Source of the DNA: Methanovulcanius yangii | Lineage (GTDB): Archaea > Halobacteriota > Methanomicrobia > Methanomicrobiales > Methanomicrobiaceae | Direction: 5' to 3' | Assembly (NCBI RefSeq): GCF_018687785.1 | Contig: NZ_LTBL01000001.1 | Location: forward strand, 797,780 to 861,779 | DNA length: 64,000 nt | Shown here: in pieces, positions 33,114 to 57,145 of the stretch | How positions within the stretch are numbered: position 1 is the stretch's first letter | Layout: each line of letters begins with the position of its first letter | Notes under the pieces: generated by a model | What the model was told of the DNA's origin: nothing | What the model saw: only the letters and a program-made list of their open reading frames with translations | The model's database searches: none | Translations under genes and position numbers: made by a program

Positions 33114-33429
33114 CTCTTCCGTTCATAACGGTTCGTACCTGCTTCTGCACCCGGCGCCATAGGCCGGATGAGCGGGAGGATGCAGTTCTGTATCCATAGT
33201 GCCCGAATTTCGTTTGTTTTTACCGTATTCGTGCAATGAAGGCGGTGCATATTCATTGGCAGTAGAGGTCCCCTCCAGATCATGAGAAATTCCACAATCA
33301 GCCTTCCGTTTTCCAATTTCCGACCGAATTCGCATCGAATTATATGCTGACCATGAATGCCCGACAAATCTTTATGTGACTCCGGGAGGTGCTACCTACA
33401 TCCAAAGGGAACGATTCGGAGGTGAGGAA
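33114..33429. other. Intergenic region with promoter of acidic PEF-CTERM gene
   Basis: A 316-base divergent spacer. AT-rich boxes near 33334-33345 (GAATTATATGC) and 33370-33377 (TTTATGTG) are candidate TATA elements for the rightward gene, whose GGAGGTGA ribosome site is at 33418-33425. Nothing else was recognised. Confidence 0.45.
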
Positions 33430-34575
33430 ATGAGAAGGACATCGAGAGATATTCGAAGATTACAGGCCGGATTTGTCGTATTTCTGGTCCTGATGAGTAT
33501 TCTCTGCGTCATCCCGGTTCTGGGAGACGATGGTGAATCCATGACAGGCGGAGCGGATGATGGCGCCCCGTCCGGAGATGATTCGCAGGAAAGCGTATCT
33601 GCTGACGCCGATTCCGGTGACGAAAGCGGACAGTCATCCTCAGACGATACAACGGGGGACGATGACATATCAGACCCCGCCGATGCAGCAGGCGGAGAGG
33701 ACGAAGCGGCTGATAACGGAGCATCAGACCCCGCCGATGCAGCAGACGGAGAGGACAAAGCAGCCGATAATGAAGCGTCAGACCCCGACGACGGAGCAGG
33801 AGAGGATGACGGAGCAGGCGCCGATGATGCTGCGGGTGATGATGCGGCAACCGGTGAAGATACCGTAGTGGATGAAGCTGAGGTTGCAGACAGCGACGAT
33901 GAATCAGGTGAGGACGAGGAAGCCGACGACGATGAATCGGTCGGGGAGGACGACGCGGCCGGGCCTGAAGAATCCGAAGAGGACGAGGAAACGGTCACCG
34001 GAGAGGACGCGGCTGAAGAAGAAGAGGGAGAGGATGAAAATGAGTCTGATGGTGTGCCAAAAGGAAAGGGCCACGATAAGGTGAAGAAAGAAAAAGTCCA
34101 TGAGCCCGCACTATCGGACGATGAATCGGATGAGGAAGAGGAATCCACGCAGGGAGAACAGACCGGTGAAGAGGACGTGACCACGGACGAGGAGGAAACT
34201 GCCGAAGGAGACCAGCCGGCAGCCATTACCGGAATCACCCACCGGGCAGGGTCGGATGATGGCGATGATCCCTTCCCCGACAATGGGCCATCGGAGAGCG
34301 AAACAGGCCTGACAGAGACGGCAGCTGACGGACAGACCGTCACCGACGACGAGATGTCCGGCATTCTGGCAACGGACTGGTTCTATCAGCGGGACGAAAT
34401 ACCCCCGGGATACTCGTATGGGGGCCTAAATCCCGACAATGTGCACAACATGTCACCCCTGGGAACGGAATACGCCGAGGCGGCGGCAGTCCCTGAATTC
34501 CCCACCGCAGGTATACCGCTCCTCCTGATACTCGGCATCGCCGGCGCCGTGCTGGTTGTCCGGCGAAAGACCTGA
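33430..34575 (+). CDS. Highly acidic low-complexity PEF-CTERM surface protein
   Basis: 381 residues. ATG 33430 follows GGAGGTGA by 4 nt. A signal peptide (about 1-35, QAGFVVFLVLMSILCVIPVLG) is followed by nearly 240 residues made almost only of Asp, Glu, Ser, Gly and Ala with imperfect repeats (ASDPADAADGEDKAADN-type units around 75-120), then a short Lys patch (KGKGHDKVKKEKVH, about 215-230), more acidic sequence, and a C-terminal sorting signal VPEFPTAGIPLLLILGIAGAVLVVRRKT. The mature chain should be extremely negative and probably disordered, tethered at the cell surface after archaeosortase processing. It could bind cations or act as a spacer; that is inference. A T-run follows. Confidence 0.85.
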   Translation: MRRTSRDIRRLQAGFVVFLVLMSILCVIPVLGDDGESMTGGADDGAPSGDDSQESVSADADSGDESGQSSSDDTTGDDDISDPADAAGGEDEAADNGASDPADAADGEDKAADNEASDPDDGAGEDDGAGADDAAGDDAATGEDTVVDEAEVADSDDESGEDEEADDDESVGEDDAAGPEESEEDEETVTGEDAAEEEEGEDENESDGVPKGKGHDKVKKEKVHEPALSDDESDEEEESTQGEQTGEEDVTTDEEETAEGDQPAAITGITHRAGSDDGDDPFPDNGPSESETGLTETAADGQTVTDDEMSGILATDWFYQRDEIPPGYSYGGLNPDNVHNMSPLGTEYAEAAAVPEFPTAGIPLLLILGIAGAVLVVRRKT

Positions 34576-35934: not shown

Positions 35935-38900
35935 CTATGGCTGATATCCGCTGCCTATCCACAGGATATTGGACACATCTCCCGTGGGATCGTACATCCG
36001 TTCCAGCTGCCACCTGACGTTCACCGGATCACCGGGGCCCGACAGCAGCGGTACCGAGATCTCCACGGATCCCGCATCAGCAGTCTCCACCATTTGTTTC
36101 TGGACTTCCTTAACCTCCGGGTGCGAGGACCGGGGGAGAAACGCCGCAATATCTTTTCCGATTATGCTGGTGCCGTCTCCCAAAAGATCGGTGAGCGTTG
36201 AATTTGCACGGGTGATGATGCCCTTCCTGTCGACGGAAAAGACCGGCCGGCCGGGGTATTTGTCGCAGATGGATGAAAAGACGCCATTCTGCCTGCTGAC
36301 ATAGAGGATATGATCGTTTTTGATACCCTCAAGAACCCGCCGGAGTCTGTGATGGGATTGTTCGGCCTCTGACCCATCCCCTTCCCCCATCTCTCCGACC
36401 CCTGCCTTTTTGGCCAGTTCTTCTTCATACCGGCACCTCTGGAGCGTGACGGATGCCTGATTCACGAAAATTTCGATGATCGATATCGTGGCATCATCAA
36501 TACGATGAGGGACGGCAAAGGAGATGCTCCCGAATAATCTGTTGTCCCGTGAGATCCCAATCATATAACACTCGTAGAGGTCCAGAACGTCATTGATTAT
36601 CGAGCAGACATCCTCGGAGAAGTTCTTCAGGAAGAGATCATACAGCCCCCCGGAGAGGTGGATAAGCCTGTTGGAGTTCAGGTAGGTGCGATACTCTTCC
36701 GGTATTTTGAACCGGGTATCCAGAACCCTCCGGTTGAGCATGCTGCTCAGCATATTTTCGTACCCCTCAATCTCCCCCTTAATGGATTTGATCTGCAATG
36801 TTCCGGGATTATCATCGAAAGCGGTGACGACCGCAACGCCGCCGGGGAGAAGTGTTGTGAGTTCGGATGCAATGTAATCATAAATCGTCTCACTCCTTGG
36901 GAGACTGGCAAAACTCATGGCAGACCGCGAGATGAACTCCAGATTTTTTACATACTCCCTCTCTTTGATCTCGCTCTCCTTGCGGTCGGTGATGTCAGTG
37001 CCCACGGCCGAGATGCCGGTGAGGCGTCCTTCCGCGTCGATGACGGGACTATTCGTCCATGAGATCCATTTTTTGTCCCCGCCCCGTCCGGCATATTCAT
37101 GTTCCGTGATCCTGTATAGGGCAGGGTCGTCGAGAATCTTTTCAATGATATTCCTGAACATTCGTGCATTCTCCGGTGTCCCTGAAAAAATGGTATCAAC
37201 GGCACTTGCACCTATCAGTTCCCCCTTCCGGAATCCGAGGAGATCTTCCCCGAATTCATTGACGAACAGAATTGTACCGTCAGCATCCGTTTTTAGGACA
37301 ATTGCGCATGTTTTTTCAACCAAATCACGATACTTTTCCTCGCTCTGCTGAATTTCGTTTTCCATCCTCTTTCGCTGCGTCATATCCTGAATCGATTCGA
37401 TGGCTCCGATGACGGCCCCCCCCTCGTCATAGAGTCCGGTTGCCTTCGCCCAGAGGAACGCCCCGTTCCCGTCATTCAGGTGCGATGACCAGACCTCCAT
37501 ACTGAGGGCGTTCTTCTCTTTCCGGATCGTGGGGGGCGGGTTAAAGTGCGTAATGTCATGGGACAGTACATAATCGATCAGCATCGGCCGTCTGGTACCG
37601 TAAAACGGGACTGAATAGGACTGATCTCCCCGTCCGAGAATCTCTTCTTTCGGTATGCCGGTCAGTTGCTCCATCGCCCGGTTCCACGCCATCACTTCTG
37701 AATCGCTGTTGATCACAAAGGTTGCTTCCGGCAGGAAATCGATAATATCCGTCAACCGGGAGATGGTGCTGGTCAGACCGGATTCATATTCCTTTCTCTC
37801 GGTCACATCCCTTTTGACAACGGCAATCTTTTCGACCTCACCACCGGAATTGATGATGGGGGAGAGTGAGAAGTCAAATATCCTGCCGTCAATCTCGTCC
37901 ACAAACGAATCGGAGAGTTTTGAAGAGACAATCTCAGAGGAAATGTCCCTGATGCTTTCGCCAATATCCTCCGGGATGAATTCGTAGATGCTTCTGCCAA
38001 GAATTGACTGGATGGTGAGGGAATCGTCACCACAATACTTCCTGATATACTCACAGGAGGATTTGTTCAGTGAGAGGAGCCTGCCTTCCAGGTCGATAAG
38101 AAGTGAACCGTCATTTATCGAGTTGAGTAAAAACCGCGTGTTCTTTTCATTGCGTTTCAGGGCTTCCTTTACCAGTTTGGCATCGGTGACATCCCTTCCG
38201 ACAAACTGAAACTCGAAGATCGAACCATTCGTATCGAGGATGGGAGAGATGCTTCCCTCTACCCAACGCGGTTTTCCCCCTGTCTGCAGGGTGCGAAATT
38301 CCACCGTCTGAGATCTCTTCTCTGCATCTGCCAGATTCACTGAGGCCCGGATGAGCCCTGTATCATCCGGATAAATATCCAGGGAATCCAGCTCTTTGGC
38401 GATTGGCATCTCTTTCGGGACATTGAAATGAGAAGAGAAGGCTTCGTTCACATAATTGAGGGAATGGTCCAGGGACATCCGGCATATCAGTTCCTGCTGC
38501 CCCTCGACGATATTGCGGTACCGGTTCTCACTTATGGTAATGCACTTCTCCGCCTTTTTCCTCTCAGAGATATCCCGGTGGACGGAGAGGACGACAAGCC
38601 TGTCCTTCAGCGTAAATACATGGGAGCTTGCTTCCACCGGGAAGGAAATCCCGTCTTTTCGTACCAGTATCCCTTCATAAATCGAATGATAATTCTCTGC
38701 AAGGTCCGGTTCGATGGCGTCGTCGGATACGTTCGATGGAGCACGAAATATTTCGGGGAATTTTTTCCCGAAGAGTTCATCACGGGAGTAATGAAGTTTC
38801 CTGCAGGCCGTATCATTCACTTCGATTAATGCACCAATCCGCCGGGTATCGGTGATCTCATACAGGAATATCGCGTCGTTGGCATTATTGAAGAGATTTT

Positions 38901-39486
38901 TAAATTTTTCCTCATTCTCGGTGAGGCAGTCCCTCATCCTCTTCTCTTCGGTAAAGTCCTTTATGATGACAATCAGGCCATGGTCACCGCCTTCGAGGAC
39001 GGACGGGACAAACATGAGAAAAAAATTGTACGTGGTTTCGTCGTACGTGTAGGTGATCTCCTTGCAGGTTTTTTCCCCGTTCTCAATACAGGCCTCGATG
39101 AGGGGGACAAGTTCGGTATCACTGATGATGGGAATCGTCAGTTCGTCGATAAATTTGTTCAGGATGTCCTGTTCCTTCAGATTGAAGTATTGCAGGTACT
39201 TGTCATTCACCTGAATGATTTTTCCTCCCTGATTGAGGAGAAGGATTAAATCAGGGGAAAACTGCAGCATTTTGCTGATGGGCAACCGCCGTGAAATGGT
39301 GTAGACCTTTGCATTTCCTATGAGGTGTTCGTCAACCTTGCCCGACGCCAGTAATACCTGGAGATATTTTGCGATGGAATTGCGGTGAATGTTCGTACTA
39401 TGGGATATCTCTGTTATCGTCATCCCTTTCGCCTTGAACTTCAGGATGTTCAATATTTTATCGAGCAATTCCTGTTCGCCGGGCAT
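35935..39486 (-). CDS. Large HTH-multi-PAS-GAF regulator without kinase domain
   Basis: A 1183-residue protein. The HTH (about 1-65, MTITEISHSTNIHRNSIAKYLQVLLASGKV) and the YTISRRLPISKML link are followed by six PAS domains (about 75-190, 190-315, 315-440, 440-560, 565-690, 690-815), a GAF-like domain (about 820-1010, AMSFASLPRSETIYDYIASEL) and a final PAS (about 1080-1183). No HisKA or HATPase domain is present and the protein ends in the PAS core. There are no membrane segments. It would integrate several small-molecule, redox or light inputs and act through its N-terminal DNA-binding domain. ATG 39486 is preceded by a weak GTGACCT. It lies between surface-protein genes and is divergent from the thioester PEF-CTERM gene. 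Confidence 0.85.
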   Translation of the reverse strand: MPGEQELLDKILNILKFKAKGMTITEISHSTNIHRNSIAKYLQVLLASGKVDEHLIGNAKVYTISRRLPISKMLQFSPDLILLLNQGGKIIQVNDKYLQYFNLKEQDILNKFIDELTIPIISDTELVPLIEACIENGEKTCKEITYTYDETTYNFFLMFVPSVLEGGDHGLIVIIKDFTEEKRMRDCLTENEEKFKNLFNNANDAIFLYEITDTRRIGALIEVNDTACRKLHYSRDELFGKKFPEIFRAPSNVSDDAIEPDLAENYHSIYEGILVRKDGISFPVEASSHVFTLKDRLVVLSVHRDISERKKAEKCITISENRYRNIVEGQQELICRMSLDHSLNYVNEAFSSHFNVPKEMPIAKELDSLDIYPDDTGLIRASVNLADAEKRSQTVEFRTLQTGGKPRWVEGSISPILDTNGSIFEFQFVGRDVTDAKLVKEALKRNEKNTRFLLNSINDGSLLIDLEGRLLSLNKSSCEYIRKYCGDDSLTIQSILGRSIYEFIPEDIGESIRDISSEIVSSKLSDSFVDEIDGRIFDFSLSPIINSGGEVEKIAVVKRDVTERKEYESGLTSTISRLTDIIDFLPEATFVINSDSEVMAWNRAMEQLTGIPKEEILGRGDQSYSVPFYGTRRPMLIDYVLSHDITHFNPPPTIRKEKNALSMEVWSSHLNDGNGAFLWAKATGLYDEGGAVIGAIESIQDMTQRKRMENEIQQSEEKYRDLVEKTCAIVLKTDADGTILFVNEFGEDLLGFRKGELIGASAVDTIFSGTPENARMFRNIIEKILDDPALYRITEHEYAGRGGDKKWISWTNSPVIDAEGRLTGISAVGTDITDRKESEIKEREYVKNLEFISRSAMSFASLPRSETIYDYIASELTTLLPGGVAVVTAFDDNPGTLQIKSIKGEIEGYENMLSSMLNRRVLDTRFKIPEEYRTYLNSNRLIHLSGGLYDLFLKNFSEDVCSIINDVLDLYECYMIGISRDNRLFGSISFAVPHRIDDATISIIEIFVNQASVTLQRCRYEEELAKKAGVGEMGEGDGSEAEQSHHRLRRVLEGIKNDHILYVSRQNGVFSSICDKYPGRPVFSVDRKGIITRANSTLTDLLGDGTSIIGKDIAAFLPRSSHPEVKEVQKQMVETADAGSVEISVPLLSGPGDPVNVRWQLERMYDPTGDVSNILWIGSGYQP

Positions 39487-39980
39487 AGGTCACGAATGCA
39501 CAATAAAATATTTAATACTATGTCGGGCATCCATTATGACCGTTGAATAAAAAAACTGATTTAGGGATTTATACGGGCATTGCAGGCACAATATTCGTCA
39601 TATTCAGATTCGTATTCATTCTGACATATGATGGAGGATTCGGTTCACTGAACGGTGAATCTGAAAATTCAGAATAGATACCGCCCCACCATTGTCTGAT
39701 TAGAACAGTCCCGGGACAATCCGGTTCTGGTGCGAACATCGCTTCTGTTGGGGAAAAGGCCCTCTTCACGGATATCATGCAAGTCGTTGCAAACAGCAAT
39801 ATATCAGTGAAATACCCATATATTCCCATTTCCGGGCGCACCCGCAGGGTTGTGCATTAATATCTGGCGCATTAGTATATATCCGGATTCGTATAGGGGG
39901 GAGCATATGTAAGACTTTGAACGGCAGCTTCCGCCAAGGATGCCGGCAGTTTTGCATGAAATTGAATGGAGGTATGAAAA
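39487..39980. other. Divergent intergenic region upstream of thioester PEF-CTERM gene
   Basis: Nearly 0.5 kb with no convincing protein; a 90-codon minus-strand frame at 39569-39841 has no recognisable sequence or ribosome site. A TATA-like box lies at 39874-39882, and the ribosome site GGAGGTATGA is at 39968-39977. The leader would be about 80 nt long. Confidence 0.45.
39874..39882 (+). promoter_or_regulatory. TATA-like box of thioester PEF-CTERM gene
   Basis: AGTATATATCC sits about 100 nt before the start codon, the strongest AT box in the spacer. Confidence 0.45.
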
Positions 39981-40637
39981 ATGAACAAACTATTTGCCGC
40001 ATTGCTTGTGGCCGCTCTCTGTATGGTGGCACCGGCAATTGCAATGGAATGGGATGATCTCCCGGCCGAGGCGATGGTGTACATCGACAGTAACTATCCG
40101 CCAGGAGATGTGATGGGCACCTACTTTGACGTGTATTTCTGTGACAAAGTTTGTGGTGCCAGATGTGTGGATTGCTGTGACTGGGAACCGGTAGGCGACC
40201 CCTATGCCGGATGGTGCGTCGACACCTCGGCAAGTTCCATCAAAGATGTGTGCTACTGCGGTGAGATGTATTCCACCATCGGGGTGAGCCCTGAGTTAAA
40301 CCAGGTAAACTGGATCCTCAACAACAAGCATGATCTATCCTATGGAGAAATTCAGGCAGCCATCTGGATGGTTATGAACCAGCCGAACACCAAGTACCCG
40401 GACTGGGACACTGCGCTTGCAGAGAGATTAGCCAACGCAGCAGATCCAGAGTTTGAGCCGGGATGCGGCGATATTGTCGCGATCTGGATCCTTCCGTGTG
40501 ATGACGATGGACAGGGGATCATCATTGAAATGGAGATTCCTCCCTGCCCGCCGGTTCCTGAATTCCCGGTCATGACGATTCCGCTCTTCTTCGTCGGCGG
40601 AGTACTTGTTGCGGCCAGTGTTCTGAGGAAGGAGTAA
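39981..40637 (+). CDS. PEF-CTERM surface protein with candidate Cys-Gln thioester domain
   Basis: 218 residues; the ATG follows GGAGGTATGAAAA. The signal peptide is about 1-21 (cleavage after AIA). The domain at about 33-140 contains GWCVDTS with Cys79, a CxC-rich insert (FCDKVCGARCVDCC, residues 54-66), LNQVNWILNNK and EIQAAIWMVMNQ with Gln125. This matches the Cys ... (T/I)QxAIW layout of thioester surface-adhesin domains (TQXA family), in which the Cys and Gln side chains form an internal thioester that can bond covalently to host or surface amines. The C-terminus is the sorting signal VPEFPVMTIPLFFVGGVLVAASVLRKE. The protein would be displayed on the cell surface after archaeosortase processing. 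The thioester itself is inferred from the motif. Confidence 0.8.
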   Translation: MNKLFAALLVAALCMVAPAIAMEWDDLPAEAMVYIDSNYPPGDVMGTYFDVYFCDKVCGARCVDCCDWEPVGDPYAGWCVDTSASSIKDVCYCGEMYSTIGVSPELNQVNWILNNKHDLSYGEIQAAIWMVMNQPNTKYPDWDTALAERLANAADPEFEPGCGDIVAIWILPCDDDGQGIIIEMEIPPCPPVPEFPVMTIPLFFVGGVLVAASVLRKE

Positions 40638-40670: not shown

Positions 40671-41429
40671 CCTTCTCAGTTGTTCAGAGATATCTTATCA
40701 GGCATCGTTCCCACAGCCTCTCCCGTACGCTTGATTTTGCAGACGCGGGTGCATATGGAGGAACGAACCGTCTGTAATCTCCGGTCCGCCAGAGCAGCCC
40801 ATTATGCGGTCCGGCACATCGCGTTTTGCATGGAGGTGCCCCTGCCCGTCGGCACACTCAGGAGACGCCCGCGTGCCGTACCTTCCACAACCCCCGGCGA
40901 GGGGACATCCTCTCTCATATTATCACCCCGCTCTGCCACAGGCCCTTCACAGCGGTTCACCAAAATCGAGCCAGGCTTCCCGTGAGTTCCGCAATTGTGC
41001 CGGTCCGTCTTCCGACCATATGCCCCGGGATTGTACGGGTACCACCAATTCGGGGATGTCTGTGGCGGTCGCCACGTATAGGAGGTCCGGCCATACCGCT
41101 GCTGCCGCCCGGCAATTGAGAATGCTACGAGGTGCGGAGATACCAACCGGCCTGTGTCAATGTTCGGTAATAATCCGCCAGGGTCGCGTGGCGAGTTATG
41201 TCTCAGATGGATGAATAAGGGACCTGCCGAAAGGCCGGGATTTGCCATGAACGCGCTGAACACAAATGCCCGGCTTTTCCTTATATATCTAAAATGATAC
41301 TGTAGGGTCAGGGCAGGGTCAGGCGGGTGAATCAGACGGATCCCGCGATGATCCCGGATGCTGACCAGCTCTCCTTAAGAGCGCATCCGACGAGCCCTGA
41401 ATCTGAACACAAAGGGGTGAAGAGTGGTT
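40671..41429. other. 0.76-kb region without a convincing gene
   Basis: Between two PEF-CTERM genes. Several overlapping frames of about 100-150 codons exist on both strands (such as 40802-41263 minus and 40804-41214 plus), but none has a recognisable domain, signal peptide or ribosome site, and they are mutually exclusive. It could be a decayed gene or a long leader region. A strong TATA-like box at 41281-41290 serves the next gene, leaving a GC-rich leader of about 120 nt containing a GGGTCAGG direct repeat near 41305-41322. Confidence 0.4.
41281..41290 (+). promoter_or_regulatory. TATA-like box upstream of short PEF-CTERM gene
   Basis: TTATATATCT preceded by CC, about 140 nt upstream of ATG 41430; a near-consensus archaeal TATA element. 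Confidence 0.5.
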
Positions 41430-41696
41430 ATGAATAAGAAACCGTGGATTATCCTCCTCCTATTGGCTATCATGGGGATAATGGCTGTGTTCATCGGTGT
41501 AGGCCAGGGATATCCTGTTCCCGATAGCAGTGCCGCTGAAAGCCCGGGGTTTGACGATTCACCCCCCCCCGCCACTGTTCCCACCCCTGAATTTCCGACC
41601 ATTGCCGTGCCTGCAGGCTTTCTGGTCGGGATGGTATACATCATTTTCCTGCTGAAGGACAAGGGACGAAAAATCCTTGTTTTCAGCAAAAAATGA
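41430..41696 (+). CDS. Short PEF-CTERM protein
   Basis: About 88 residues from ATG 41430 (a GTG at 41424 is the alternative). A signal peptide (about 1-25) is followed by only about 28 residues of Pro/Ser/Asp-rich mature sequence, then the sorting signal TPEFPTIAVPAGFLVGMVYIIFLL with a basic tail. It has no folded domain and looks like a minimal archaeosortase substrate or the remnant of a larger surface protein whose middle was deleted. The basic tail (KDKGRKILVFSKK) is longer than usual. Confidence 0.75.
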   Translation: MNKKPWIILLLLAIMGIMAVFIGVGQGYPVPDSSAAESPGFDDSPPPATVPTPEFPTIAVPAGFLVGMVYIIFLLKDKGRKILVFSKK

Positions 41697-42174: not shown

Positions 42175-42717
42175 TCACCGGTACTTGCCCAATGATACCA
42201 CTACCGCACCCATCACGAGGGCAAAGAGCGCCATCATGGCAGGCATGTAGAAGGGAAACTCGGGGACCGGTGTGGGCGTGGTCGGTGGAGGTGTCGGTGT
42301 TGGTGGACAGCATGCATAGCAGAAGTCAATGTGACTGATGTCCGGGTACTTGCCACTCGATGGGTTCAGGGGAGGACCGAGTATCGTGTCCGATGTTATC
42401 GGGCCATCATAGTCATAATAATTGTAGACATTCGCATCCCTTCCCTTCACTATGACGGCATAGACGCAGATCCCGTCGGTTTCGAAGTTGAAGTGAGTCG
42501 CATTCACCATCGTGATCGTAATCGAACCTCCGTCAATGTAGTGGGTACCTGCATAGGGACCGTCTTCGATTTTATACGCCTCATAGCATGAGTCGAGATC
42601 ACAGCATTTGGGGTTGCCGTCAACGTAGTCGGGGTCCACAATACTCGCAGCCCCCGGGAAAACGATGAGCGCTGATGCGATTATCAGCACTAATGCAAAT
42701 AGCATTTTTTTCATCAT
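42175..42717 (-). CDS. PEF-CTERM surface protein with SHIxFCY-type domain
   Basis: 180 residues. A signal peptide (about 1-24) is followed by a mature domain with CCDLDSCYEAYKI, GGSITITMVNATHFNFETDGICVYAVIVKGRDANVYNYYDYDG and ISHIDFCYACCP. The VIVKGxxxANxYxY ... D ... PxNxxSGK ... ISHIxFCY pattern is one I know from many bacterial and archaeal extracellular proteins, where it forms a small beta-sandwich of unknown function. A Pro/Thr linker precedes the sorting signal VPEFPFYMPAMMALFALVMGAVVVSLGKYR. ATG 42717 has a TATA-like box (ATTTATAAGA on the minus strand, 42761-42770) about 45 nt upstream. Confidence 0.82.
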   Translation of the reverse strand: MMKKMLFALVLIIASALIVFPGAASIVDPDYVDGNPKCCDLDSCYEAYKIEDGPYAGTHYIDGGSITITMVNATHFNFETDGICVYAVIVKGRDANVYNYYDYDGPITSDTILGPPLNPSSGKYPDISHIDFCYACCPPTPTPPPTTPTPVPEFPFYMPAMMALFALVMGAVVVSLGKYR

Positions 42718-45353: not shown

Positions 45354-48020
45354 TCACCTCACCCTGCCGCACCACGCGAGGACGGCGAGGGCAAGAATCC
45401 CCGATACAAGGCTGGGACCGTACCATCCGGTCTGCTGCCCGGCCGGCACCTGCTCCGGGATTTTACCGGCAGTCGCAACCGCCGTCGGTGAATCGGAGGG
45501 TTGCTGTTCGTCCAGAAGTATGATCCGTGCAGTCCGTCCCTGTGCACGGATCTCATATGCCGAACTGTCGCCCTCAGGGGTCGGCAGGACTACATTGCCG
45601 CCTTCTGATACCCCATACCCGGAGTACGGCGCCCCGTCGCGAGTTATCTGCAGGACCGCATCCACGGGGACGGCGACCGTTGCCGCCCTGCCCGCCCCCG
45701 TATCCGCAATCGTAATCAGGTCCTCGCCGTCCATCCTGAGATAGCTCCCTCCTGCCACCAGACAGGAATAATCCGCAGAATTCCGGGTCTGCCGGTACCA
45801 CAGCATCGTGGCATCGGTTTCAAATCCATCAAAAGCAGCGTCCCCTCTCCCGGCATAGATGGTGTCCGTATGCATCCCTGACCTGACCCGGACTGCAGTT
45901 CCGGTTCCGGCAACCGCGATCTCTTCGCATGTCTCCTGCTCTTCATTCACGTATCCGGAGAGGAGAACCGTTATCCGGAAGAGTTCGTTCTTCGGGGGGG
46001 TTCTCAGGGCGATGACGGGGGTAAAGACCTCCGATGCGGCATCATATCCTCCAATGCGGCCGACATGCTTCGTGATGAGTATCTCTGACGACGGGACCGA
46101 GAAGATGTTCAGGAGAACCTGCCTGCCATAAGGATTCGTTGTTCTCCAACTCAACGAGTTCGTGATAACGCCGGTATCCGTTTCACCCTTGTAGGGCAGT
46201 GACAACCAGTTGTAGGCGGTCCCGTCGATTGCGAGATCTCCCTTCACATGCCCGATCTCGGTTTGCGTGTACTTTGCGTCCCCGTTTTTATCCGTCGTCG
46301 GGATAATTCCAAGGCTGGAAGGCCGCAGGATGTTGCGGTATATCCAGTCCTTTTCCCCCGCCAGTGTGTCAAATACCACAAAGTAATCCTTCTCCGGATA
46401 CAGGATGGTCCGGGTATGCTCCACTTCCGATGACAGGGCGACGGATGTCGACCAGTCATCATCGATGACGGAGGTGATCGTCTCCGAGGCGACGATGGCC
46501 TCCATCCACGGGGTCTCTATGACCGTCTCCACCGCGGCCGGAGTACTCATGCCACCGGCATTTCCCTTATAGGCACCCCGTGCCCGGCTGTCCGCCCAAG
46601 AGGAGATGGCAAACGGAGTCTGCGGGTCTTCGATTGCAATCCCGTTGTGGTGGACCTCGTACTGTCCGTAGTAGGTGTCGAGGACATGCTTCGTCTCCCC
46701 GGCGTCTGCGAGGAGGAGATCGCCGTTGCCGTAGTACTCGATACTCAGCTGGTCGTGGTGGGCGCTGTCACGGTTGCTGTTGGTCTGCACATCGAAGGTG
46801 ACGAGCGAGAGCCAGTCCGCATCCTCGTCCCAGTTCTCCCTGAACACCTGGTAGATGGCGTCCTCGTCGAGACGGCTCGTCGAGTCGGGGGTGTCCGGGC
46901 TGATGCTGTTGTAGTTGCCATAGACGCAGAAGAGCAGCTTCGTCGGTGCGAGGTCGTTCTCCCGCGAGTACGGCAGGAGGGTGTTTCCTTTGGTCTGGTC
47001 GAGATACCTGATCATCTCCGCCTTCTCCCCCGTGTCCAGGAGACTCATGATGCCACGCTGGTAGGTCTCCAGCGTGTTTCCGCCGGTCACGTAGTTGTTC
47101 ATGTAGCCGTTGGGCATCGTCTCCCAGAGTTCGGAGGTGACGATCTTCTGTGCAACGGGGTAGTCGTCGAGGATGTTTTTGTCGTAGTGATTGCTGTAGA
47201 CCTGGAACCACCAGAGGAGATCGTCGATCACATAGTTCTTGTAGGCACCGAGCAGGTGCTTGCCGGATGCCTCATCGAATCCGAAGGAGATGAGGGGCCG
47301 GTTATACGTATGCAGTTCGTCGTTTTCAAAGAGATAATCGGTTCCTGCACGAGTCCAGTCATCGGGACCGGATTTCAGCGCAAGGTTGTTCGGGTTGGTA
47401 TAGTCCTCGAGCGCGAGTCCTGCGATCGCAACGCTCGGGTATGCCTGTCCGTGGTAATCGGCAAAGGAGACATAGGTCGTCTTTGCGCCGTCGCCGTTCA
47501 GGTCGCGATAGGTACGGTCCGCAAGGACGGCAAGCTTGTCGCGTATGATGTTGTCGTCTGCCGCCGACAGGCCGGGCTGGACCCAGTCATAGGCGAGGGC
47601 GTACCCCCGCAGGGCGACGGCCCGGTCCATCTCATATGGCACGTCCCCGACATCGAGGTTGAGAAGGGCCTGCCGGGCCTTCGTCAGGTACTTCCGGTCC
47701 CCCGTCATCTGGTAGGCGAGGGCGAGATCTCCGGTAAATCCGCCCCGGTAGGATATTCGGTTGTACGTCTTCCAGTTGGGATCGGAGAAATCACGGGAGA
47801 GCGATGCATCGGCTGATTTGATGATGACCGCCTTCCAGGTGCTCCATGGTGCAGATGAACCGTACTGGTAGCCGGGAACCTCGCGGATGTCGTCGAACAC
47901 GAGGTTCGGGTGTGGGGCTGCGGATGATAATGAACAACATATGACGATGGATACGAGAATTCCAATGAACAACCTCTTTTTTGCTATGATAACCGACGGT
48001 GCAGGGGGGATCGTCTTCAT
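45354..48020 (-). CDS. Exported heparinase II/III-like polysaccharide lyase-type protein, copy A
   Basis: 888 residues; the ATG has GAGGAAC just upstream. A signal peptide (about 12-35) is followed by an alpha/alpha-toroid region (about 36-380; TKARQALLNLDVGDVPYE, GYALAYDWVQPGLS) and a heparinase II/III beta-sandwich starting with SAHHDQLSIEYYGNGDLLLADAGE (about 415-440), the conserved His/Asp segment of this lyase family. More beta structure follows to about 840, and a C-terminal hydrophobic helix with a GRVR tail anchors it to the membrane. It would act outside the cell on uronic-acid polysaccharide or on the cell's own glycan. Residues about 112-478 are almost identical to the 1474-residue paralog while both ends diverge. 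Confidence 0.82.
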   Translation of the reverse strand: MKTIPPAPSVIIAKKRLFIGILVSIVICCSLSSAAPHPNLVFDDIREVPGYQYGSSAPWSTWKAVIIKSADASLSRDFSDPNWKTYNRISYRGGFTGDLALAYQMTGDRKYLTKARQALLNLDVGDVPYEMDRAVALRGYALAYDWVQPGLSAADDNIIRDKLAVLADRTYRDLNGDGAKTTYVSFADYHGQAYPSVAIAGLALEDYTNPNNLALKSGPDDWTRAGTDYLFENDELHTYNRPLISFGFDEASGKHLLGAYKNYVIDDLLWWFQVYSNHYDKNILDDYPVAQKIVTSELWETMPNGYMNNYVTGGNTLETYQRGIMSLLDTGEKAEMIRYLDQTKGNTLLPYSRENDLAPTKLLFCVYGNYNSISPDTPDSTSRLDEDAIYQVFRENWDEDADWLSLVTFDVQTNSNRDSAHHDQLSIEYYGNGDLLLADAGETKHVLDTYYGQYEVHHNGIAIEDPQTPFAISSWADSRARGAYKGNAGGMSTPAAVETVIETPWMEAIVASETITSVIDDDWSTSVALSSEVEHTRTILYPEKDYFVVFDTLAGEKDWIYRNILRPSSLGIIPTTDKNGDAKYTQTEIGHVKGDLAIDGTAYNWLSLPYKGETDTGVITNSLSWRTTNPYGRQVLLNIFSVPSSEILITKHVGRIGGYDAASEVFTPVIALRTPPKNELFRITVLLSGYVNEEQETCEEIAVAGTGTAVRVRSGMHTDTIYAGRGDAAFDGFETDATMLWYRQTRNSADYSCLVAGGSYLRMDGEDLITIADTGAGRAATVAVPVDAVLQITRDGAPYSGYGVSEGGNVVLPTPEGDSSAYEIRAQGRTARIILLDEQQPSDSPTAVATAGKIPEQVPAGQQTGWYGPSLVSGILALAVLAWCGRVR
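46590..47684 (-). repeat. Near-identical 1.1-kb core shared with heparinase copy B (copy A side)
   Basis: Nucleotide identity to 55709-56804 is visibly very high over this block and drops abruptly at both ends. Confidence 0.85.
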
Positions 48021-52720: not shown

Positions 52721-55700
52721 CTATAAAACACTGATATATCCTTTTTTGGTTTCAAAGTCAAGGCCCTGCCCATTAATCACCCTCAGGGTTACCGTATACT
52801 TCCCTTTCTGGGTGTAGGTGTGGGTCGGGTTGCGGTCGTAGGAAGTCTTCCCGTCGCCGAAGTACCACGTCCAGGACGTGGGACTGCCAAGGCTTTCATC
52901 GGAGAATGTGACCTCCATCGGCGCAGTCCCGCTGACGATGTCAGCGGTGAAGGCTGCGACAGGGACGGTGGGATCGGAGGGCACCGGTGTGGTCGTGACG
53001 GTGATGTAGCCACTCTTTGTCTCCGTATCCGTACCATCGGCATTCGTCACTTTCAGGCTCACGGTGTAGGTGCCGGCCTTGCTGTAGACATGGACGGGGT
53101 TTTCTTCGGATGCGGTTGTCCCGTCACCGAAGGTCCAAGCCCATGAAACGGGCGAGTTCGTGCTCTTGTCAGTGAACGACACTTCCAGCGGCGCAGTGCC
53201 GGATACGACATCCGCACTGAACGCTGCCACCGGCGGGTTCGTGACCACGACCGGGACGTCCTCGTCCGTCACCGTGATGTACCCTGCCTTCTGTTCGAAG
53301 TCAACGCCCAGGGCATTGATCACCCGCAGGGTAACGGTGTAGGTGCCGGTTCCGGTGTAGGTATGGGCCGGGTTGCGGTCATAGGAGGTCTTCCCGTCGC
53401 CGAAGTACCAGGTCCAGGACGTGGGGTTGCCCAGACTTTCATCGGTGAATGTCACCTCCATCGGAGCCCCTCCACGGACAGTGTCGGCGGTGAAGGCTGC
53501 GACAGGGACCGTGGGGTCGGAGGGGACCGGGACGGTGGGTTCGGTCGGCACCGGAGTGGTCGTGACGGTGATGTAGCCACTCTTTGTCTCCGTATCCGTA
53601 CCATCGGCATTCGTCACCTTCAGGCTCACGGTGTAGGTGCCGGCGGCCATGTAGCTGTGAGTCGGATTTTGTGCCGTTGACGATGCCCCGTCACCGAAGG
53701 TCCAGACCCATGAAACGGGGGAATTCGTGCTCTTGTCGGTGAACGATACTTCCAGCGGCGCAGTGCCGGATACGACATCCGCACTGAACGCTGCCACCGG
53801 CGGATTCGTGACCACGACCGGGACGTCCTCGTCCGTCACCGTGATGTACCCTGCCTTCTGTTCGAAGTCAACGCCCAGGGCATTTATCGCCCGCAGGGTA
53901 ACGGTGTAGGTGCCGGTTCCGGTGTAGGTATGGGTCGGGTTGCGGTCATAGGAGGTCTTCCCGTCGCCGAAGTACCAGGTCCAGGACGCGGGGTTGCCCA
54001 GGCTCTGATCGGAGAATGTTACCTCCAACGGAGCCCCTCCACGGACAGTGTCGGCGGTGAAGGCCGCGACCGGAACCGTGGTTTCGGACGGCACCGATGT
54101 GCCGGTCACGGTGATGTAGCCCGTCTTTGTCTCCGTATCCGTTCCTGCGGCATTCGTTGCCTTCAGGGTCACGGTATAGGTGCCGGGGTCCGTGTAGCTG
54201 TGGCTCGGGTTTTGTGCCGTTGACGATGCCCCGTCACCGAAGGTCCATGCCCATGATGTGGGACTGTTCGTACTGGCATCCGTGAACTGCACGGCAAGGG
54301 GTGCCGTGCCGGTGGTGACATCAGCCGTGAAGGCTGCAACCGGTGCCGATGACACAGGGGTTGTCCCGGAGGTCACGGTGATGTAGCCGGTTTTTGTTTC
54401 GGTGTCCGTCCCGCTCACACCGGTTACGGCAAGAGTCACGGTATAGGTTCCCGCCGTCGTGTAGGTGTGGGTCGGATTCGTTGCGGTGGATTGTGTTCCG
54501 TCGCCAAAGTTCCATGACGAGGAGACGGCACCAACACTGCTGTCGGTGAACTGAACCGACAGGGGTGCGCCGCCGGTTGTCGGACTTGCACTGAATCCTG
54601 CTTCCGGAGCAACTGGTGCCGGCACCACTTCTCCGGATGTGAGGAAGGTGTATTCGTGGCTTCCGGCTGCTGTCGTGATGATGATTGCCGACTTGTCTGC
54701 GGAGAGTTTCCAGCCGGTATAGGTCACGCCGTCCTTCAGCACCTTGGTTACGTCACTGCCCAGCTGATAGAGGGAGACCTGGCCCGACGAAGCTGCGTCA
54801 ACCATCAGGGCAACGGCATTTCCGTCCTTGTTCATGGACACACTCTCCGTTCCGGTGCTCGTGATGAGGGGTGCTCCGTTCTTGTTCAGGTAGGTCCCTT
54901 TGATGAGCGTGTAACTGTAGTCCTGTGAGGATCCCGTGGTCCTGATGAATCCCGACTCGGCATTCGTCGAGTAATCGCCGAATGAGCTTGCGCCGGCTCC
55001 CGAGTAGATGGTGTCGGTATAGGCTGCGGTGCTCACCCGGATGGCATTCCCGTTTCCGCTCACCGGAATTTCCTGCGTATTCTTCTGTTCTTCGCCCGCG
55101 TAGTTCGAGGTGAGAACCGTGATGCGGTACAGGTCTTCTTCCGGTCCGTCCTTCAGATATACAACCGGTGTATAGACTTCGGATGCAGTGTCATATCCCG
55201 CAACTCTCCCCGCATGTTTCGTGACGAGAACGTCCGAGGCCGGGGCGGAATAGATATTCATGCTGACCTTGTCCCCGTACGGATTCGTTGTGGACCATGT
55301 CAGGGAATTCGTCGTGATGCCGGTGTCGATCTCATCCTTGTAGGCCGGTGACAACCAGTTGTATGTTGTCCCGCCGATCTTGAGATCACCATTCACATGT
55401 CCGATTGCAGACCCGGTCGGCGTGATGCTCAGGCTGGTCGGGCGCAGCACATTGCGGTACGTCCATTCCTCGCTTCCGTCAAACCGGTCGAAGACGATGA
55501 AATAGTCATCCTCCGGATACAGAATCGTCCGGCTGTAGTCGATCGGTGATGAGAGACTTTCGGAGGCGGACCAGGTACTGCCGATCACCTTGGTGATCGT
55601 CTCCGAGGCGACAAGGCCCTCCATCCAGGAGCTCTCGATCACGGTCTCCACGGTCGTGGGAGTGGTGATGCCGGCTGCATACCCCTTATAGACACCCCGT

Positions 55701-57145
55701 GCCTGGCTGTCTGCCCAGGAGGAAGTGGCAAACGGAGTCTGCGGGTCTTCGATTGCAATCCCGTTGTGGTGGACCTCGTACTGTCCGTAGTAGTTATCGA
55801 GGACATGCTTCGTCTCCCCGGCATCTGCGAGGAGGAGATCGCCATCGCCGTAGTACTCGATACTCAGCTGGTCGTGGTGGGCGCTGTCACGGTTGCTGTT
55901 GGTCTGCACATCGAAGGTGACGAGCGAGAGCCAGTCCGCATCCTCGTCCCAGTTTTCCCGGAACACCTGGTAGATGGCGTCCTCGTCGAGACGGCTCGTC
56001 GAGTCGGGGGTGTCCGGGCTGACGCTGTTGTAGTTGCCATAGACACAGAAGAGCAGCTTCGTCGGTGCGAGGTCGTTCTCCCGCGAGTACGGCAGGAGGG
56101 TGCTGCCCTGCGTCATGTCGAGATACCTGATCATCTCCGCCTTCTCGCCCGTGTCCAGGAGACTCATGATGCCACGCTGGTAGGTCTCCAGCGTGTTTCC
56201 GCCGGTCACATAGTTGTTCATGTAGCCGTTTGGCATCGTCTCCCAGAGTTCGGATGTTACGATCTTCTTTGCAACGGGGTAGTCGTCGAGGATGTTTTTG
56301 TCGTAGTGGTTGCTGTAGACCTGGAACCACCAGAGGAGATCGTCGATCACGTAGTTCTTGTAGGCACCGAGCAGGTGCTTGCCGGATGCCTCATCAAATC
56401 CGAAGGAGATGAGGGGCCGGTTGTATGTATGCAGTTCGTCGTTTTCAAAGAGATAATCGGTTCCTGCACGAGTCCAGTCATCGGGACCGGATTTCAGCGC
56501 AAGGTTGTTCGGGTTGGTATAGTCCTCGAGCGCAAGTCCTGCAATCGCAACGCTCGGGTATGCCTGTCCGTGGTAATCGGCAAACGAGACATAGGTCGTC
56601 TTTGCGCCGTCGCCGTTCAGGTCGCGATAGGTACGGTCCGCAAGGACGGCAAGCTTGTCGCGTATGATGTTGTCGTCTGCCGCCGACAGGCCGGGCTGGA
56701 CCCAGTCATAGGCGAGGGCGTATCCCCGCAGGGCGACGGCCCGGTCCATCTCATATGGCACGTCCCCAACATCGAGGTTGAGAAGGGCCTGCCGGGCTTT
56801 TTCGAGGTATTTGTTGTCCTTTGTTATCTGGTATGCAAGGCCTAGATCGCTTGCAAATCCACTCCGGTAGGATATCCGGTTATAGGTTGCCCAATTGGGA
56901 TCGGAGAAATCGCGAGAGAGCGATGCATCGGCGGAGTTGATGATAACCGCCTTCCAGGTGCTCCATGGTGCAGATGAACTGTACTGGTAGCCGGGAACCT
57001 CGTTGATGTCGTTAAACAGGAGGTTCGGATGTGCTGCTGCTGACGCAATTGCCGGTATTGCCAGGGAAATTATCAGTAGTCCAATAATTACCCTGAGCGA
57101 TGGAATTTTTAGGTTCAATCGTGGGTTAATATGTCGGGCACTCAT
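52721..57145 (-). CDS. Exported heparinase II/III-like protein with seven PKD domains, copy B
   Basis: 1474 residues; the ATG follows GGCAGGAAA. A signal peptide (about 15-38) is followed by an alpha/alpha-toroid domain and the heparinase beta-sandwich with SAHHDQLSIEYYGDGDLLLADAGE (about 418-442), more beta structure to about 840, then seven PKD domains (about 850-1474), each with a WxFGDG core and an xHTYTxxGTYTVTL strand. There is no C-terminal anchor; the chain ends with the last PKD domain. The core (about 115-480) is almost identical to the 888-residue paralog. PKD domains 3+4 and 5+6 form a 567-bp tandem duplication. It is predicted to be a secreted glycan-degrading or glycan-binding protein. 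Confidence 0.85.
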   Translation of the reverse strand: MSARHINPRLNLKIPSLRVIIGLLIISLAIPAIASAAAHPNLLFNDINEVPGYQYSSSAPWSTWKAVIINSADASLSRDFSDPNWATYNRISYRSGFASDLGLAYQITKDNKYLEKARQALLNLDVGDVPYEMDRAVALRGYALAYDWVQPGLSAADDNIIRDKLAVLADRTYRDLNGDGAKTTYVSFADYHGQAYPSVAIAGLALEDYTNPNNLALKSGPDDWTRAGTDYLFENDELHTYNRPLISFGFDEASGKHLLGAYKNYVIDDLLWWFQVYSNHYDKNILDDYPVAKKIVTSELWETMPNGYMNNYVTGGNTLETYQRGIMSLLDTGEKAEMIRYLDMTQGSTLLPYSRENDLAPTKLLFCVYGNYNSVSPDTPDSTSRLDEDAIYQVFRENWDEDADWLSLVTFDVQTNSNRDSAHHDQLSIEYYGDGDLLLADAGETKHVLDNYYGQYEVHHNGIAIEDPQTPFATSSWADSQARGVYKGYAAGITTPTTVETVIESSWMEGLVASETITKVIGSTWSASESLSSPIDYSRTILYPEDDYFIVFDRFDGSEEWTYRNVLRPTSLSITPTGSAIGHVNGDLKIGGTTYNWLSPAYKDEIDTGITTNSLTWSTTNPYGDKVSMNIYSAPASDVLVTKHAGRVAGYDTASEVYTPVVYLKDGPEEDLYRITVLTSNYAGEEQKNTQEIPVSGNGNAIRVSTAAYTDTIYSGAGASSFGDYSTNAESGFIRTTGSSQDYSYTLIKGTYLNKNGAPLITSTGTESVSMNKDGNAVALMVDAASSGQVSLYQLGSDVTKVLKDGVTYTGWKLSADKSAIIITTAAGSHEYTFLTSGEVVPAPVAPEAGFSASPTTGGAPLSVQFTDSSVGAVSSSWNFGDGTQSTATNPTHTYTTAGTYTVTLAVTGVSGTDTETKTGYITVTSGTTPVSSAPVAAFTADVTTGTAPLAVQFTDASTNSPTSWAWTFGDGASSTAQNPSHSYTDPGTYTVTLKATNAAGTDTETKTGYITVTGTSVPSETTVPVAAFTADTVRGGAPLEVTFSDQSLGNPASWTWYFGDGKTSYDRNPTHTYTGTGTYTVTLRAINALGVDFEQKAGYITVTDEDVPVVVTNPPVAAFSADVVSGTAPLEVSFTDKSTNSPVSWVWTFGDGASSTAQNPTHSYMAAGTYTVSLKVTNADGTDTETKSGYITVTTTPVPTEPTVPVPSDPTVPVAAFTADTVRGGAPMEVTFTDESLGNPTSWTWYFGDGKTSYDRNPAHTYTGTGTYTVTLRVINALGVDFEQKAGYITVTDEDVPVVVTNPPVAAFSADVVSGTAPLEVSFTDKSTNSPVSWAWTFGDGTTASEENPVHVYSKAGTYTVSLKVTNADGTDTETKSGYITVTTTPVPSDPTVPVAAFTADIVSGTAPMEVTFSDESLGSPTSWTWYFGDGKTSYDRNPTHTYTQKGKYTVTLRVINGQGLDFETKKGYISVL
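52990..54067 (-). repeat. 567-bp tandem repeat of two-PKD units
   Basis: The block at about 52990-53500 recurs at about 53557-54067 with a period of exactly 567 bp, for example the GCTGCCACCGGCGG stretch at 53221-53236 and at 53788-53803. This is 189 codons, two PKD domains. Identity is very high except in one linker segment. Confidence 0.85.
55709..56804 (-). repeat. Near-identical 1.1-kb core shared with heparinase copy A (copy B side)
   Basis: This block matches 46590-47684 almost base for base. Sequence outside it in the same genes is clearly diverged, pointing to recent gene conversion or partial duplication. Confidence 0.85.

Follow-up and report, generated by a model that had tools for sequence, protein, structure and literature searches.

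Does a small secreted protein of the methanogen Methanovulcanius yangii carry a thioester domain (TED) of the type described for Gram-positive bacteria alone (PMC4450167)? If it does, which glutamine closes the bond? The protein, here called P0001, is encoded in a window of 64,000 nucleotides, the whole stretch of DNA analyzed (contig NZ_LTBL01000001.1, positions 797,780 to 861,779). Our reading, to which we give a probability of roughly 0.78, is that P0001 is a secreted, anchored small TED protein in which a Cys79-Gln178 thioester would serve covalent attachment. Behind it stand four kinds of computed evidence: fold prediction, conservation, synteny and an archaeosortase-family gene.

The gene is an intact open reading frame on the forward strand (39981..40637; 218 amino acids; ATG start). 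It is preceded by a ribosome-binding site, GGAGGT (39968..39973, +), where GAGGTAT is common to all six aligned loci, and by a TATA-like box (39876..39882, +), with TATATA present in 6/6 aligned upstream regions. The product begins with a probable signal peptide (residues 1-21; 39981..40043, +) made up of MNK, a hydrophobic core and an APAIA end, which is kept in close homologues. The thioester-type domain follows (approximately residues 26-184; 40056..40532, +), and a linker of about ten residues, with no stalk domains, leads to a PEF-type C-terminal sorting tail (residues 192-218; 40554..40634, +; VPEFPVMTIPLFFVGGVLVAASVLRKE). P0001 has ten cysteines beyond the signal peptide. Five of them (C54, C58, C62, C65, C66) lie in a Cys-rich insert (C54-C66; 40140..40178, +), the loop preceding the strand that holds Cys79. 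A same-genus homologue (L004) is likewise Cys-rich at this place, and the Methanogenium homologues have no insert. The original prediction had the reading frame and its boundaries right, as well as the extra Cys-rich insert, the PEF-type C-terminus and the positions of Cys79 (in GWCVDTS) and Gln125 (in EIQAAIWMVMNQ, EIQAAIW).

What fold does the domain adopt? An AlphaFold2 model built without templates (pLDDT 87.8, pTM 0.85) shows the order strand-strand-strand(Cys)-strand-helix-helix(Gln125/Trp129)-helix-strand-strand(Gln178). A Foldseek comparison of this model with the PDB puts TED chains in all of the 16 leading places (5A0G, 4C0Z, 5A0D, 2XID, 2XI9), with E-values from 2.0e-5 (5A0G, probability 1.00) to 0.017; the next hit has a probability of 0.11. 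The TM-scores against TEDs are moderate, about 0.5. For the Haloferax marinum relative (L063), modeled from its own sequence on a nearly identical alignment (pLDDT 91.9), the top 15 hits are again all TED chains and nothing else is credible; the two models have most alignment rows in common and are not fully independent. The main domain of P0001 is thus predicted to have the TED fold, a beta-barrel with a three-helix bundle, and the proposal of a thioester-adhesin domain is supported by both fold comparisons and by transitivity through the family.

Sequence searches give a divided answer. The single sequence of P0001 has no match in Pfam or among PDB sequences, and what it matches in NCBIfam and PHROGs is at chance level. 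The Pfam TED profile (PF08341) finds nothing in the whole P0001 genome, and control genomes are equally silent. Among the relatives of P0001, 22 of 37 match this profile at E<0.1 (best 1.8e-6), with most individual scores below the cut-off, and one archaeal protein (L038) reaches 26.5 bits against a gathering cut-off of 22 bits. The TED profile expected for this protein is therefore missing from P0001 taken alone and present in its family. Profiles A2 and A3 gave only chance matches to PDB sequences, PDB searches with L038 and with the pLS20 protein retrieved no TED, and a profile comparison with a class II TED family (pLS20 group) was not significant (probability 2%).

How conserved are the residues of interest? 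A whole-genome search finds homologues in 12 of the 232 genomes of the order, the M. yangii genome included, and in 13 aligned order-level homologues Cys79 (codon 40215..40217, +), Gln125 (40353..40355, +), Trp129 (40365..40367, +) and Gln178 (40512..40514, +) are invariant. A domain profile adds more relatives in the phylum and 38 loci in public genomes; the latter include archaea (Methanogenium, Methanocella, Thermoplasmata, Bathyarchaeota, Hodarchaeum, Haloferax) and bacteria, among them planctomycetes, cyanobacteria, Bdellovibrionota and alphaproteobacteria. We aligned 37 domains, archaeal ones together with others from bacteria that are not Gram-positive, a set that excludes a decayed copy (L046) and a near-duplicate (L060). 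At a mean column identity of 23%, six columns are invariant: Cys79, Asn110, Asn114, Gln125, Trp129 and Gln178. The public-genome search was seeded with a pattern over the Asn110-Asn114 region, which biases those two columns; the other four all lie outside the seed. The conservation anticipated for Cys79 and Gln125 is thus complete at both levels (13/13 and 37/37), as is that of Gln178, which had been overlooked. Such invariance, shared by Trp129, shows that the motifs did not arise by chance. No second cysteine is invariant, which speaks against a place for Cys79 in a conserved disulfide.

The sequence around these positions can be set beside the motifs of known TEDs. The cysteine motif [YFL]C-Phi-zeta appears in P0001 as WCVD, in which the cysteine, hydrophobic and polar positions fit and Trp replaces Y/F/L; W, F or Y precedes the cysteine among the relatives. 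TQxxPhiW is present in helix 2 as IQAAIW, with the Thr replaced and the Gln and Trp invariant (37/37). Gln178 stands in the context GQGIII, which fits the flanking motif of known TEDs loosely. Many bacterial members have a second glutamine five residues after the first, and only the first is found in all. Archaea and bacteria are intermixed in the domain tree, whose deep support is weak, and we claim no direction of transfer. In many relatives (L010, L011, L050, L052, L053, L057, L061, L062, L063) the domain is followed by a common ETAW...W.xY module, with which the protein ends. Methanogenium cariaci has additional TED gene copies with frameshifts (L045:6039-6666 and L046:4914-5602), and the one in L046 has also lost the QxAIW motif.

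The TED of P0001 might keep its fold and yet be unreactive, either because Cys79 and Gln178 have a conserved packing role or because the thioester forms and hydrolyzes without a covalent target; the protein would then act non-covalently, as an adhesin or a component of the envelope of the ordinary kind. The missing stalk is in keeping with this alternative, as is the fact that we found no experimental reports on any archaeal member in the open-access literature. However, it is precisely the two bonding residues and the motif of helix 2 that are strictly conserved across archaea and many bacterial phyla, and the degraded M. cariaci copy is both frameshifted and without QxAIW. We consider the unreactive domain unlikely, and a reactive Cys79 the better reading.

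With which glutamine would Cys79 react? The original prediction named Gln125, and in its favor both residues are invariant (37/37) and adjoin in known TEDs. However, the crystallized TEDs bond elsewhere: their cysteine is joined to a glutamine of the last strand, after three helices (Cys109-Gln261 in SfbI, Cys138-Gln267 in CpTIE; PMC4450167, PMC6194298). The Gln and Trp of TQxxPhiW are helix residues that hydrogen-bond the cysteine backbone and are dispensable for the thioester (PMC4450167, PMC6194298); mutating the helix-motif Gln of Cpa leaves its thioester intact (PMC4450167). In the P0001 model, strand 3 ends at Cys79, Gln125 and Trp129 lie in helix 2, and Gln178 immediately precedes the last strand. 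Gln125 is therefore the helix-motif glutamine, and the bonding position is held by a separate residue, Gln178, equally invariant in 37/37 domains. By homology to the solved TEDs the reactive bond is most likely Cys79-Gln178, and a Cys79-Gln125 thioester is very improbable. Very improbable, too, is a Cys79 that acts as a disulfide partner or metal ligand tied to the Cys-rich insert, with a coincidental likeness to TEDs: the ten cysteines, the C54-C66 cluster among them, would suit it, but Cys79 is the sole invariant cysteine, the insert is missing from close relatives and the credible fold matches are exclusively TEDs.

The C-terminus of P0001 is of the PEF type (VPEFP, a hydrophobic stretch, then RKE). 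The PEF-CTERM model TIGR03024 does not match P0001, and matches 5 of 13 homologues weakly (best E 0.098). One exosortase/archaeosortase-family gene scores above the cut-off in the genome (G000:C1:867854-868555); it is intact, has the DCTG, Arg and His motifs, and sits about 6 kb past the right end of the window. The archaeosortase C model (TIGR03762) has no match in this genome, and the controls are equally silent. For the suggested PEF-CTERM signal and archaeosortase, then, the motif, the hydrophobic helix, the basic end and the enzyme gene all speak in favor, and the TIGR03024 profile does not. We infer that the enzyme at 867854-868555 sorts P0001.

Next to the TED gene lies a divergent regulator with an HTH and multiple PAS domains (35935..39486, -; Pfam PAS matches, weak HTH_IclR). 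The same divergent pair is adjacent in five other loci (L003, L004, L044, L047, L048), and in two Methanogenium loci (L043, L045) the TED paralogues are situated elsewhere, the second L045 copy being decayed. Downstream is a small PEF-type protein of 90 amino acids (41424..41696, +), with similar genes 3' of the TED gene in L003, L004, L044 and L047, followed by a further PEF-type surface protein of 180 amino acids (42175..42717, -), with a similar gene in L047. The L047 contig is titled Deltaproteobacteria, but it has the methanogen TED neighborhood with regulators of 72-74% identity. It is probably an archaeal contig that was misbinned, and for this reason we do not count it as transfer.

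The count of PEF-type proteins covered the window and two further stretches of the genome. Besides P0001, three proteins with such C-termini, the two just named among them, are encoded no more than about 9 kb from the TED gene (33376-34575, 41424-41696, 42175-42717), the first being highly acidic and Asp/Glu/Ser-rich. Elsewhere in the genome (L002:1-1611; G000:C1:119128 region) there is a gene for a protein of 536 amino acids that combines a DUF11-like region with a C-terminus of the PEF type. Two large secreted proteins (45354-48020 and 52721-57145, -), the second with PKD-like repeats, have near-identical N-terminal regions, which suggests a recent duplication.

How might P0001 work? The protein would be almost wholly one small TED, near class I in topology, followed by the PEF-type archaeosortase signal. 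Bond formation, reactivity, target and anchoring are the inferred steps. After export, the internal Cys79-Gln178 thioester would form with loss of ammonia, and the Gln125-Trp129 helix motif would pack on Cys79 and help to position it. The buried thioester may persist until a suitable nucleophile docks, for instance the amine of a lysine or perhaps the hydroxyl of a sugar. It would then acylate this nucleophile and so link P0001 to its target by a covalent bond. The C-terminal helix would be cut off by the archaeosortase, which would probably join P0001 to a membrane lipid. With a linker of no more than some ten residues, the likeliest target would be within reach of the membrane, for example the S-layer or the extracellular matrix. 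The original prediction suggested bonding to partner cells or to a sheath; for P0001, a target in the envelope is no less probable than a second cell, and other cells would be more accessible to the long-stalked relatives (TED with DUF11/DUF7507 and SdrD_B).

We found no account of the TED fold in archaea in the open-access literature; some archaeal members are probably already listed in databases, given that L038 passes the Pfam cut-off. In a survey of 2025, isopeptide stalks turned up in archaea, seldom with a companion domain that could be recognized (PMC12617251). The family described here supplies such a companion: methanogens, haloarchaea and other archaea have in it a domain that probably serves covalent attachment, sometimes on stalks of this kind. 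A broader proposal, which we hold with somewhat less than even confidence, is that the reactive TEDs of archaea and of bacteria other than Gram-positives form a distinct branch of the WC type, whose archaeal members are sorted by archaeosortases. On this view the stalkless version in Methanomicrobiaceae, encoded beside a conserved and divergent HTH-PAS sensor, would cross-link the envelope or matrix of the cell that makes it and not a host. Covalent adhesion in archaea becomes directly testable, the Haloferax member being suited to genetics, and the glutamine to mutate is now Gln178 instead of Gln125.

How does P0001 compare with known systems? The complement/alpha-2-macroglobulin thioester domain, which has been reported in archaea (PMC8416519), likewise brings thioester chemistry to archaeal surface proteins, but it is alpha-helical and has adjacent Cys and Gln in a CxEQ motif. 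P0001 has no CxEQ, and on this ground we reject a domain of the complement type. Class II TEDs (BaTIE and the pLS20 TIE adhesin, in which Cys68 is required for efficient conjugation; PMC8092201) also pair a Cys with a late Gln, but contain a beta-sandwich insert absent from P0001, and the pLS20-group profile comparison was, as noted, not significant. The closest likeness is to class I TEDs (CpTIE 5A0G, Cpa 4C0Z, SfbI 5A0L; PF08341). The predicted fold and strand-helix order are alike, with the Cys in the third strand, the Gln/Trp pair in helix 2 and a Gln at the last strand, and both are secreted surface proteins with a C-terminal sorting signal. P0001 differs in being archaeal, in its shorter Cys-Gln spacing (99 residues, compared with 129 in CpTIE and 152 in SfbI), in having WC instead of [YFL]C, in the non-conserved Thr of TQ, and in an archaeosortase-type signal in place of LPXTG. 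Unlike most TED adhesins, including the TIE adhesins, where isopeptide or ester stalk domains follow the TED, it has no such stalk. Its long archaeal relatives (L031-L034) have the same domain and conserved residues, but with stalk modules after it: in L031 and L032 the TED is followed by DUF11/DUF7507 and SdrD_B modules, L031 has a VPXXXP-CTERM signal, and L033, L034 and L042 share the layout judging by their sequences. These five stalked proteins come from another archaeal family of the phylum. The layout of L031 and L032 resembles that of the Gram-positive TIE adhesins, of which it is an archaeal counterpart.
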